In this document: one piece after another, positions 40,907-44,578 of the stretch
Position numbering within the stretch: position 1 is the first letter of the stretch
Layout: the number at the start of each line of letters is the position of its first letter
Assembly: GCA_903902915.1 (NCBI GenBank)
Contig: CAIUWR010000079.1
Span: 1 to 45,018, forward strand
Reading direction: 5' to 3'
Length of the DNA stretch: 45,018 bases
DNA from: an uncultured Hyphomicrobiales bacterium
Lineage (GTDB): Bacteria; Pseudomonadota; Alphaproteobacteria; Rhizobiales; Beijerinckiaceae
Translations under genes and position numbers: made by a program
The notes under the pieces: generated by a model
What the model saw: only the letters and a program-made list of their open reading frames with translations
What the model was told of the DNA's origin: nothing
Database searches by the model: none

Positions 40907-40951
40907 TGGTGCCGCTTGAGGGATTCGAACCCCCGACCCCCTCATTACGAA
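40907..40951 (-). pseudogene. 3' fragment of tRNA-Thr(CGT), likely integration site
   Basis: Read on the minus strand this is the 3' part of a tRNA: anticodon loop TTCGTAA, 3' anticodon-stem strand TGAGG, variable loop, T arm GGGGG-TTCGAAT-CCCTC, acceptor strand AAGCGGC, then A-CCA. The loop and acceptor match tRNA-Thr with anticodon CGU. Upstream bases give CAGCA instead of the complement CCTCA, and no D arm follows, so the 5' part is missing. This is the usual attachment sequence of tyrosine-integrase elements; the intact gene should lie further right, outside the window. Confidence 0.75.
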
Positions 40952-40986
40952 TGCTGTTGCTTATCATATTTTACGGGCCAGAATCG

Positions 40987-41013
40987 GTATAGTTGTATAG
41001 TTTGTTGTATAGT
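40987..41013 (+). repeat. GTATAG iterons in copy A
   Basis: Three copies of GTATAGT spaced 9 and 12 nt apart, directly behind the tRNA fragment. Copy B has the same array with the first unit changed to GCATAGT (44180-44206). They may be recombinase arm sites or overlapping -10 elements. Confidence 0.5.
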
Positions 41014-41031
41014 CTACCTGATCGGGCACGA

Positions 41032-41090
41032 TGTCGTGTCGGCACGACAAATCACGTTTCCCGAAAGATACTCGCCGACTAGAGCTTCAG
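41032..41090 (+). promoter_or_regulatory. 59-bp identical block with inverted repeat, copy A
   Basis: Identical over 59 bp to 44225-44283, although the flanks differ by 15-50%. It starts with the inverted repeat TGTCGTG-TCGG-CACGACA (41032-41049), a plausible regulator operator, 90 nt before the amine oxidase ATG. Confidence 0.6.
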
Positions 41091-41179
41091 CATCGCGTTA
41101 GCTAAAAGATAGCAACTACGCCCTATTCGCAAAAGTGGCAGGGACTCCAAGCCAAGCCAGCCCAGCGTAGGACAGATGG

Positions 41180-41242
41180 ATGAGCGGAACGCTCCCGGAC
41201 GACTCCGAAGTTCTAGCGATAAGCGGCGGACTCGTTGTTTAA
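41180..41242 (+). pseudogene. 5' stub of flavin amine oxidase gene, copy A
   Basis: Encodes MSGTLPDDSEVLAISGGLVV then TAA. It corresponds to the first 18 residues of the copy at 44372 and is cut exactly where the leftward channel gene ends (stop codons overlap by two bases). The dinucleotide-binding Gly pattern is already mutated (ISGGL for IGGGL). Clearly a remnant. Confidence 0.65.
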
Positions 41243-43476
41243 ACTCCTGCTAAGACCACGCCAACAACACTAAACACCACCGTGATAAGAACGAAGAAGA
41301 TTTTAATTGCTCGGTCTATCATAAAGTATCTGCTATCGACCTCGCCTGGTTTGAACTTTGTTAGATTTATTGTAGCTATGATGCAGCATAATCCGAGCGA
41401 AAAGAAAGCATAGAAAAGGTATTCTATCGCCATGGTATAGCCGACCGATCCAAGTTGTGAATTGACTGAGCTCAGCAAAACCGATCCTGCGATAACGCTA
41501 GCCACTGGAACCCCCGCACGCCCATTCCCAACGCTGATAGGCAACCAAAGAGATGCAAACATCATCAAAGTCATAATAACGAGTGGCAATAATGTCTTCG
41601 ACAAAGTAGCAACACTTTTACGTGCAATAGAAACATCCATTCGATAACCGGAGACTTCCCTGACGGCGCTTGTCCCTTGACGGTTTGGATTACCTAACGA
41701 TGATTTTGTTACGAGGTCGTCTCTCCTCTGAGATATAGCAAGTGGGTGCCATTGCGTGATGTGATCAAACGCACCGCTTCCCGCAGTAACACTCGTTGAC
41801 GAATTAGCTAGATCAGAAACTGCAGAGGATATGGAGCGTCGATCTAATGCATAGACAATATGGTTCGACGCAGCTCGGCGATTGAAGAATCTTATGACCA
41901 GGTTCTGTTTATCAAATGGATACATGTGCGCATCAAATTCACCCGAAAAAAGCCCGTTTATGTGGTAAAGATGATAAGTAGTTCCATCCTCGAGCAAGGT
42001 TGTCGATTTCTCCACAGGCTGACGCAGGTCAAAAGCGCCTTTCGTTATTAGGTCAGGGAAGACCAAGTCAGTTGGATCTGATAAGCTAGCAGTTTTTTGG
42101 TTAAATCTCATCCAAAAATAGAAATCTGCTTGGAACGTCGATTTCGCAAAATCTACGTCTGAGACACTATTCAGATAAAAACCAGAGTAAATCACCTTCT
42201 GACGACGTGCGAGGTGCCCCGGCGCCAATTCTACGACGACATTTTCTGCCAGCTCTTGTTGGGTAGGCGGTTCGTCGTTTCTATCCAACTGAATTAACTG
42301 CTCGGGTGCAGATTCGAAAACACGGCCCCGAAAACGACCGATACGACCTGATTGCGCGCGAGTTCTATCTGCAGAAAACCAAATTGGCCCTGCCAAACCG
42401 GGGATACCAACCTCAGGTGTTTTGAGCTCACTAAGCCAGCTTATCGCTCTGTTACGTAGTGACTTCAGGTCCTCATTTGGCCAATTATTTGAAACTGCCC
42501 GAGCAGCTAAAATGGCAATTCTCGCAGCATCATAGCCTTGAACCGCAAGCCAAGTGGGCGCACGTTTATATCGCTTTTCGAATCTGTTAGAAAAATCCAG
42601 TGCTTCAGCGCTACTCGTGTCGAGAATAATTGGTGTAACTGCAAAAACACCGTCGGTAAAATATCCCGGTCTACGAATCTCCTCATCAAATTTGTCAAAA
42701 AACTTAGGATAATTATCTTGTCCATTCGCGCTGCCGCATAAGATGAAGCCTTTCGCGCCTCCTCGCCGCAATTCGGCAAGAACCGGTACGCTTTCAACAT
42801 CCGTCATGCCCAATACGATAGCCGGGGCAGTGGAATCAGAGGCAACTTTACGCGCCACAGAGATGGCTTCATCCGAATTCTGCACGCTAATCATCTCGGT
42901 CTTAATTCCGATATATTCAGCAGTCTTCTTAAATCCTTCCGCGAGCGGGGTACCAAATCCGTTCGGGTAAAAAATTACAATCGCACGACGACCACCCAAG
43001 AGATGGCCTAAATGATTCGCTAATATACCTCCCATTTCGCTTGTGCTAAAAATCGTCTTAAAAGACGTTGCGCTCTTACTTACGGCATCTCCACCCGCCG
43101 CAGGAGCGATCATCGCCATCCTAAAATCAGCAAACACTGGGCCTGCTGAAACGGCTCCAGATGTTAGGTTCGGTCCAATAGCAATGAGCGCACTGCTATT
43201 GCCCGCAAGGGTCGCGGCTGCGCGCGCGCCATCCTCGGTGCTATGATCGTCGAACTCCTCAATTTTTATGTGACCTTCTCGGGACTCAGCGTTGGCTTCC
43301 TCCACCGCCAGGTGGACCCCATCGGACAACTGATCTGCCACGTCTTTTCCCGGGCCGCTTTGTGACATTGTCGTCGCGATGGTCAAATCTGCTGCGGAAC
43401 TAAAAGCGCTGCTAAATGCAAACGTGAAAGCTGCTATGATTAATACCAGAATAAAACGGGGCTCTTTGGGCATCAT
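41239..43476 (-). CDS. periplasmic solute-binding domain fused to a pentameric ligand-gated ion channel
   Basis: About 745 residues. Signal peptide at 1-31 (PRFILVLIIAAFTFAFSSAFSSAA). Residues ~32-400 are a type I periplasmic-binding (LivK/Peripla_BP_6) domain: IATTMSQSGPGKDVADQLSDG, FYPNGFGTPLAEGF, AVQGYDAARIAILAAR. Residues ~425-620 are a Cys-loop-receptor beta-sandwich: SVSDVDFAKSTFQADFYFWMRF and the pro-loop YPFDKQ near 519, lacking the loop cysteines as in bacterial GLIC/ELIC. Four membrane segments follow: M1 with LLPL (~625-647), M2 pore (GVPVASVIAGSVLLSSVNSQL), M3 and M4 (~722-745). The frame is open to 43713, but 43476 begins at the signal peptide. It is low in GC and flanked by direct repeats. 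Confidence 0.88.
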   Translation of the reverse strand: MMPKEPRFILVLIIAAFTFAFSSAFSSAADLTIATTMSQSGPGKDVADQLSDGVHLAVEEANAESREGHIKIEEFDDHSTEDGARAAATLAGNSSALIAIGPNLTSGAVSAGPVFADFRMAMIAPAAGGDAVSKSATSFKTIFSTSEMGGILANHLGHLLGGRRAIVIFYPNGFGTPLAEGFKKTAEYIGIKTEMISVQNSDEAISVARKVASDSTAPAIVLGMTDVESVPVLAELRRGGAKGFILCGSANGQDNYPKFFDKFDEEIRRPGYFTDGVFAVTPIILDTSSAEALDFSNRFEKRYKRAPTWLAVQGYDAARIAILAARAVSNNWPNEDLKSLRNRAISWLSELKTPEVGIPGLAGPIWFSADRTRAQSGRIGRFRGRVFESAPEQLIQLDRNDEPPTQQELAENVVVELAPGHLARRQKVIYSGFYLNSVSDVDFAKSTFQADFYFWMRFNQKTASLSDPTDLVFPDLITKGAFDLRQPVEKSTTLLEDGTTYHLYHINGLFSGEFDAHMYPFDKQNLVIRFFNRRAASNHIVYALDRRSISSAVSDLANSSTSVTAGSGAFDHITQWHPLAISQRRDDLVTKSSLGNPNRQGTSAVREVSGYRMDVSIARKSVATLSKTLLPLVIMTLMMFASLWLPISVGNGRAGVPVASVIAGSVLLSSVNSQLGSVGYTMAIEYLFYAFFSLGLCCIIATINLTKFKPGEVDSRYFMIDRAIKIFFVLITVVFSVVGVVLAGV

Positions 43477-44131: not shown

Positions 44132-44140
44132 GGCGAGTTG

Positions 44141-44424
44141 CGAATCCCGTCACTTTCCATATGTTAATGGAATAAATCAGCATAGTTGTATAGTTTCTTG
44201 TATAGTCAGCAGGAAAGGGTCCGTTGTCGTGTCGGCACGACAAATCACGTTTCCCGAAAGATACTCGCCGACTAGAGCTTCAGTATTTTATTTGCTAAAA
44301 GCTGGCATTACGCCCTATTCGCGCAATTGGCAGGGAAACCACTCCAAGGCGACCCAGCGTAGGACAGGTGAATGAGCAGCACACTCCCGGAAGACTGCGA
44401 AGCTCTAGTGATAGGCGGCGGACT
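44141..44424 (+). repeat. direct repeat copy B (~284 bp)
   Basis: Partner of 40948-41232, about 3.2 kb away in the same orientation. It carries the same iterons, 59-bp block and amine oxidase 5' end, but no tRNA fragment; instead a possible Crp/Fnr remnant lies upstream. Confidence 0.85.
44225..44283 (+). promoter_or_regulatory. 59-bp identical block with inverted repeat, copy B
   Basis: Identical to 41032-41090, including inverted repeat TGTCGTG-TCGG-CACGACA at 44225-44242. It lies about 90 nt upstream of the amine oxidase ATG, at promoter distance. Confidence 0.6.
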
Positions 44425-44578
44425 GACATGTGCTGTCTTGCTGCACGAGGCTGGTCACTCTGTAATCGTGGTGGAGGCTGTAGAGCGTCTTGGTGGCCGG
44501 GTACACTCGCTACGCGCCCCTGTCTCGGACGCCTATTTTGCCGATCTCGGCCCAACTTGGATTTGGCCTGAGGCCTAG
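44372..44578 (+). pseudogene. truncated flavin-containing amine oxidase, copy B
   Basis: 68 residues with the FAD-binding N-terminus ALVIGGGLTCAVLLHEAGHSVIVVEAVERLGGRVHSLR and the next strand FADLGPTWIW, as in monoamine oxidases of ~400-500 residues, then a stop. The third Gly of GxGxxG is replaced (GGGLTC). The catalytic and substrate domains are absent, so it is a deletion remnant. The stop is 10 nt from the end of the amidohydrolase gene, marking the right boundary of the AT-rich segment. Confidence 0.75.

Follow-up and report, generated by a model that had tools for sequence, protein, structure and literature searches.

Can a bacterial ion channel be gated by a nutrient-sensor-like domain carried on the same polypeptide? 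The question is raised by one gene in the window, i.e. the whole 45,018-nucleotide stretch of DNA analysed here from an uncultured Hyphomicrobiales bacterium. The gene was read in a first-pass annotation as a fusion of a LivK-like periplasmic binding protein (PBP) with a pentameric ligand-gated ion channel (pLGIC). Among the accessory ligand-binding domains that may control pentameric receptors, the partly characterised one of DeCLIC has another fold. According to PMC12664993, DeCLIC alone has an N-terminal domain that is partially characterised; it consists of two jelly-roll lobes, binds calcium and is flexible (PMC9897478, PMC12664993). In having such an additional domain this prokaryotic pLGIC resembles the window protein, but the domain is built of jelly-roll lobes and is not a type I PBP.

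The gene (41239..43476, minus strand, as for all protein features below) encodes 745 residues, comprising a putative signal peptide, a type I PBP, a pLGIC extracellular domain and four transmembrane helices. The start chosen was the ATG of 43476, and a longer frame is present upstream. Residues 1-28 (43393..43476) read as signal-peptide-like, with a helix at residues 7-22 in the AF2 model. The PBP domain covers residues 29-396 (42289..43392) and the extracellular ligand-binding β-sandwich residues 421-620 (41617..42216), including the Pro-loop YPFDKQ at residues 519-524 (41905..41922). The membrane part consists of M1 (residues 621-643; 41548..41616), M2 (650-675; 41452..41529), M3 (681-706; 41359..41436) and M4 (715-744; 41245..41334). 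Peripla_BP_6 scored 88.1 bits against the protein (cut-off 31.7) over profile positions 3-333 of 343. On the channel side of the proposed HMM check, no Pfam channel family matched at E <= 1, and the NCBIfam model LGIC_1 reached 27.3 bits, below its cut-off of 500. The full-length model had a pLDDT of 72.9, with 46-67 per ten-residue block in the membrane part. The structure-search matches listed for this model covered the binding-protein half only, so the channel half was modelled separately. The predicted folds agreed with the β-sandwich and four membrane segments read from the sequence. In an alignment of 26 rows (A2), the Pro-loop residues P520 and D522, the pre-M1 residue R619 and the M1 proline P631 were invariant (26/26 rows). 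Domain order, both predicted folds, gating-interface residues and long-term constraint are thus supported by sequence and models, and the PBP and channel halves are joined in one polypeptide, as had been claimed; the interpretation given with that claim was supported in part.

Animal pLGICs carry the Cys-loop cysteines, and the name Pro-loop receptors was proposed for the family, the proline being its only absolutely conserved residue (Jaiteh et al., PMC4795631). No cysteine was found within residues 505-535 of the window protein, the Pro-loop region, so it is not a Cys-loop receptor in the strict sense. Unlike the window protein, GLIC, ELIC and the animal GluCl, GABA-A and glycine receptors have no N-terminal binding protein. 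The fusion itself is already known, and the window gene is a further example. As the earlier reading had indicated, PBP-I fusions to pLGICs were described in 2004, with a proposed role in chemoreception, and the extra domain was suggested to concentrate or sense ligand for the channel's own site (Tasneem et al., PMC549065). The PBP-I-fused ART-LGICs of Magnetospirillum magnetotacticum and Bradyrhizobium japonicum, also alphaproteobacteria, have the same order by their description in that paper (PBP-I, LBD, 4-TM). The window protein, for its part, has lost the acidic -1' residue of M2 and lies on an apparently tRNA-integrated element.

The fusion is rare and patchy. Among about 5.8 billion proteins, at least 14 full-length matches were found, and a search with the channel region gave at least 16, the window's own being included in each; these counts are lower bounds, since both searches scored the 7,995 candidates sharing most words with the query. 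P0003 is 92% identical to the window protein, and the other twelve full-length matches are 38-44% identical. The same two-domain order is therefore present in at least 13 proteins besides the window's own, in further ones from the channel-region search, and in genome loci L024-L027 and L033, which answers the suggestion to look for it elsewhere. Genomes with a match at E <= 1e-20 numbered 2 of 298 in the same family and 7 of 397 in the order, both counts including the source genome (G000). One comparable protein in the other 297 family genomes suggested that its role is dispensable. Five of the seven order-level genomes have the pLGIC type (G000, G334, G337, G376 and G503); the open frame of the G503 copy (L023) covers only query residues 206-711. 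In G574 the membrane part is of the MscS type (PF00924), and G658 is similar, its contig ending before the MscS β-domain. A scan of genome contigs with the full protein confirmed a single locus, L004, by its binding-protein part (residues 48-324). A plasmid scan returned 11 records, mostly of Azospirillum (including Azospirillum sp. B510), none covering 80% of the query.

Genes of PF16868, which we take to be the TAXI-type binding protein family, adjoin the PBP-pLGIC fusions at L024 (7530-8510), L025 (10531-11511) and L026 (8791-9771 and 12304-13275). Such a neighbour is found at 3/3 loci of the more distant group (G337, G376 and G334). Only the G334 locus has one directly upstream and in the same direction, together with a second that is convergent; in G337 and G376, both of one genus, the neighbour is convergent with the fusion. 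By eye, no TAXI-type neighbour was seen beside the fusions of G289 (5.6-kb contig) or G966.

M2 positions are given in prime numbering, assigned on the presumed analogy to the nAChR GEK motif, so that G652 is -1', A659 is 6' and I662 is 9'. By a rule from nAChR work, cation-selective pLGICs have an acidic residue at -1'. This position is E in 11, D in 8, P in 5 and G in 2 of the 26 rows of A2. The two glycines are those of the window protein and P0003, against an acid in 19/26 rows; the acid is not universal, as shown by the proline of five family members. Tasneem et al. (PMC549065) likewise give a glutamate a role in cation selectivity, in the legend of their Figure 1. Because the acidic selectivity ring was lost in the window lineage, its pore is predicted not to be cation-selective, i.e. 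to be anion-selective or weakly selective. Position 9' is L in 24/26 rows and I in the window protein and P0003. Position 6' is T in 24/26 rows; P0003 retains it and the window protein has A659.

The window protein and P0003 differ at 60 of 745 positions. Only one of these differences, the 6' T to A change, falls within the 117 columns conserved at >=95% among the other 23 rows (Fisher p 6e-4). Constraint has acted on the gene ever since the two proteins diverged. As the sole change in a conserved column is 6' Ala, reduced channel function is possible. P0027, a disrupted sequence, is part of the 26-row A2 and was left out of alignment A4, the constraint count and all trees.

The gene seems to have arrived inside an integrated element. 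The 3' half of tRNA-Thr(CGT) lies at 40907..40953 (minus strand), at the element's left junction, and matches intact genes at loci of five congeners by 92-98%. The 5' half is found on another contig of this genome (C6:192-230), and a 9-bp core is common to the two halves, on C79 and C6. The motifs TTGTATAGT are present at both element ends. From the separated halves, the core and these motifs, the element apparently split the tRNA gene; it would run from 40954 past the contig end, its middle being absent from the assembly. The break apparently falls at the anticodon loop, with an intact tRNA restored at neither end, and ARAGORN called no intact tRNA-Thr(CGT) when run on the window and on the initial 4,000 bases of C6. 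The congener tRNA matches eight places in the source genome: the two split halves, five other tRNA genes (Pro, Gly, Met, Thr-GGT and Arg), and a partial match on C15 without a tRNA call.

Two direct repeats (plus strand), the first at the element end (40945..41232) and the second 81% identical to it (44138..44424), represent two copies of the end of the element, and an amine-oxidase gene begins in each. The first remnant (20 aa with a stop; 41180..41242, plus strand) was recognised by its likeness to the second copy and overlaps the stop of the channel gene. The second (68 aa; 44372..44578, plus strand) matches Amino_oxidase (PF01593, E 3.9e-13). These two truncated starts flank the channel gene, within or extending out of the repeats. 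Congener G119 has 106 bp of the same element end at 84% identity. From about 40.5 to 44.5 kb the GC content is 46-56%, whereas the remainder of the window lies mostly at 60-74%. The GC3 of the channel gene is 0.442, against 0.845 for hemC, 0.837 for the neighbouring binding-protein gene and 0.853 for atpA (names given by eye). Horizontal acquisition inside an element integrated in tRNA-Thr(CGT) is the origin that these features point to. In the first-pass reading the gene lies on a repeat-flanked island. The gene looks foreign by GC3 and the tRNA appears split, but the repeats do not bound a 3.3-kb island, which we rejected because neither an intact tRNA nor a second junction lies in the window.

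Which ligand may the binding domain accept? In the E. coli LIV-binding protein, we take Ser79 and Thr102 to be the hydroxyls that bind the carboxylate and Glu226 to contact the α-ammonium group. The Ser79 position is T105 in the window protein, and is Thr/Ser in 25/25 rows with a residue (A2). The Thr102 position is G128 and is variable across the family. The Glu226 position is S249 and is acidic in only 4/26 rows. In five solved binders aligned here it is D/E in 4gnr, 4n0q, 3td9 and 3ipc and Ser in 3hut, a putative branched-chain amino-acid protein. The domain belongs to the type I family, but unlike LivJ/LivK it is channel-fused, and it lacks the amine-binding acid of a LivK-type amino-acid sensor. 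Conservation of the carboxylate-position hydroxyl without this acid makes α-amino acids doubtful as ligands, and another carboxylate, without an amino group, is possible. The Ser of 3hut and the lost Thr102 equivalent weaken this assignment, and the ligand class rests on residue correspondences in profile alignments, much weaker than a structure.

The order-level match in G574 carries MscS in place of the receptor membrane part (PF00924, E 4.3e-11). Its fusion frame (L029, contig C16) is interrupted by an in-frame TAG, and the downstream piece was used. A search with this piece gave 249 matches among 7,990 candidates scored, of which the best 120 were listed; among the matches listed, nearly all have about 1000 residues and precomputed PF13458 and PF00924. 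Proteins with PBP-I, a pLGIC-like domain and MscS are L029, L034-L037 and P0029-P0147; the fusion at L028 is cut by the contig end before the MscS β-domain. Named carriers include Azospirillum, Paramagnetospirillum, Magnetococcales and Desulfamplus. A Pfam check found both families in 7/7 PBP-MscS proteins (best PF00924 E 6.8e-19), and P0065 residues 28-225 match the MscS structure 2vv5 (E 9.5e-14). E. coli MscS is heptameric. The YPFD motif is absent from the six MscS-type loci aligned, some of which keep a proline (PYGT, PFGH). A channel-only profile from six fused pLGICs matched 16 of 385 genomes of the class; in G792, G1063, G963 and G739 it found MscS fusions through the receptor domain (E 4e-21 to 8e-20).

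Read by eye, L036 (G963, contig C102) ends in an apparent cyclic-nucleotide-binding domain, an arrangement that would allow sensing from either side of the membrane. The MscS fusion genes L076, L077 and L028 adjoin very long repeat/LamG-/cadherin-like ORFs by eye, as is also seen near L075. P0109 of Paramagnetospirillum marisnigri is an MscS version in a magnetospirillum relative; given this protein, it is worth rechecking whether the M. magnetotacticum protein is a 4-TM pLGIC, as assigned in 2004.

The receptor domains of the two sets are homologous. A profile of the fused-pLGIC extracellular domain matched 116/116 listed MscS fusions above 900 aa (17.6 to 60.4 bits), 113 of them at a domain E below 1e-5 for that small set; the proteins were chosen by likeness to one domain carrier, so 116/116 is not an independent count. 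Consistently, five MscS-type domains aligned to six binding-protein-fused pLGICs by hhalign (probability 99.6%, E 6e-24). In the reverse direction, the MscS-domain profile scored 135, 135 and 126 bits on L024, L025 and L026, 44.5 bits on the window protein, and only about 20 bits on the fused P0021, P0022 and P0023. The tie of the MscS receptor domain to plain pLGICs appears weak, and the link passes through the binding-protein-fused pLGICs. The hhalign probability against plain pLGICs was 16% (E 0.0015), rising to 66% (E 5.4e-5) with 116 MscS proteins, the best plain pLGIC scoring 10.7 bits. A five-row profile (A5) of this domain found no direct pLGIC match in the PDB at E up to 10.

The binding-domain profile scored 81.6-117.0 bits on stand-alone L068-L073 and 94.7-240.0 on MscS fusions, overlapping at the low end. 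In the binding-domain tree, fusions separated from stand-alone proteins with ultrafast bootstrap 88 (15 stand-alone) or 91 (13), and with FastTree 0.999 against the nine stand-alone proteins of the source genome alone. This support is moderate and the test limited, nine of the 15 coming from one genome. The MscS set without L036 formed one clade (99), and the pLGIC set with L036 another (85). In the receptor-domain tree, support was 98 for the split between four plain pLGICs and the fusions, and 92 for a group made up of the MscS set, here with L036, so L036 is either a chimaera or noise. The trees held 33 MscS fusions (28 of the 119 listed besides the query's own, plus five loci). P0016, a short match, was left out of the binding-domain trees, L023 out of all trees, and L053, L055, L059 and L063 out of both the 13- and the 15-protein tree by a length filter; L068 and L073 were in the 15-protein tree only. 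The simplest reading of these sequence comparisons is a single origin of the cassette with later pore exchange. We consider it probable that the type I PBP and the pLGIC-type extracellular domain form a portable periplasmic ligand-sensing cassette on two unrelated pores, the pentameric channel and MscS, giving natural ligand-gated MscS channels. PBP-MscS proteins would then have the N-terminal cassette of the window protein with MscS as the pore instead of pLGIC. No report of the MscS version was found in the titles and abstracts searched, a set with subscription journals and preprints largely outside its scope, and the main text of PMC549065 contains neither the term mechanosensitive nor the term MscS. 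As far as the literature searched reaches, the cassette on two pores is unreported.

We lean towards the view that the gene product is one subunit of a homopentameric Pro-loop channel in the inner membrane, a prokaryotic relative of Cys-loop receptors, whose periplasmic type I PBP gates or biases the pore in response to a small ligand, with horizontal arrival and a non-cation-selective pore. Five binding lobes would stand above the pentameric channel. Closure of the binding cleft on the ligand would push or twist the extracellular β-sandwich, whose movement may open or bias the pore, and cation selectivity would have been lost in the window lineage. In a variant of the same picture, the extra domain may concentrate or sense ligand for the channel's own site, as the text of Tasneem et al. 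(PMC549065) proposes. Alternatively, the binding domain may have no ligand-driven effect on channel current. The N-terminal domain of DeCLIC, described as flexible and without a clear role (PMC9897478, PMC12664993), fits this idea. So do the unconserved amino-acid-clamp residues, as if ordinary ligand binding were relaxed, and the separate TAXI-type genes at L024, L025 and L026, whose products could supply an agonist. However, the carboxylate-position hydroxyl is kept throughout, and retention of binding and extracellular domains together in two channel types argues for joint function, so that we regard an inert domain as unlikely.

A non-conducting or decaying receptor, i.e. a foreign gene without selectivity ring and pore-facing Thr on its way out, appears quite improbable. 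It would account for three changes from kin in M2, namely Gly for E/D at -1', Ile for Leu at 9' and Ala for Thr at 6', and for the gene's position among truncated amine-oxidase remnants, but the 745-codon frame is intact, nearly all differences to P0003 avoid the conserved columns, and the M1 Pro, pre-M1 Arg and Pro-loop are preserved. The chance that two separate genes were joined artificially, in assembly or in gene calling, is negligible. Nothing was found in favour of an artefact on this contig, which is short and ends inside the element, and the relatives with the same domain order rule it out. That the cassette is kept on a second pore type supports a coupling of sensor and pore by way of the extracellular domain.

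With a binding protein of the soluble type attached to a pLGIC, the receptor has two domains: ligands can be sought with the binding domain in isolation, and its coupling to the channel can be probed by deleting or swapping domains. If pLGIC and MscS pores are both driven by the cassette, comparing them would reveal the receptor-domain motions that gating requires irrespective of the pore. In that case the receptor domain would act as a transducer that can drive either pore, beyond the pLGIC alone, and an externally ligand-controlled branch would be added to the MscS superfamily.
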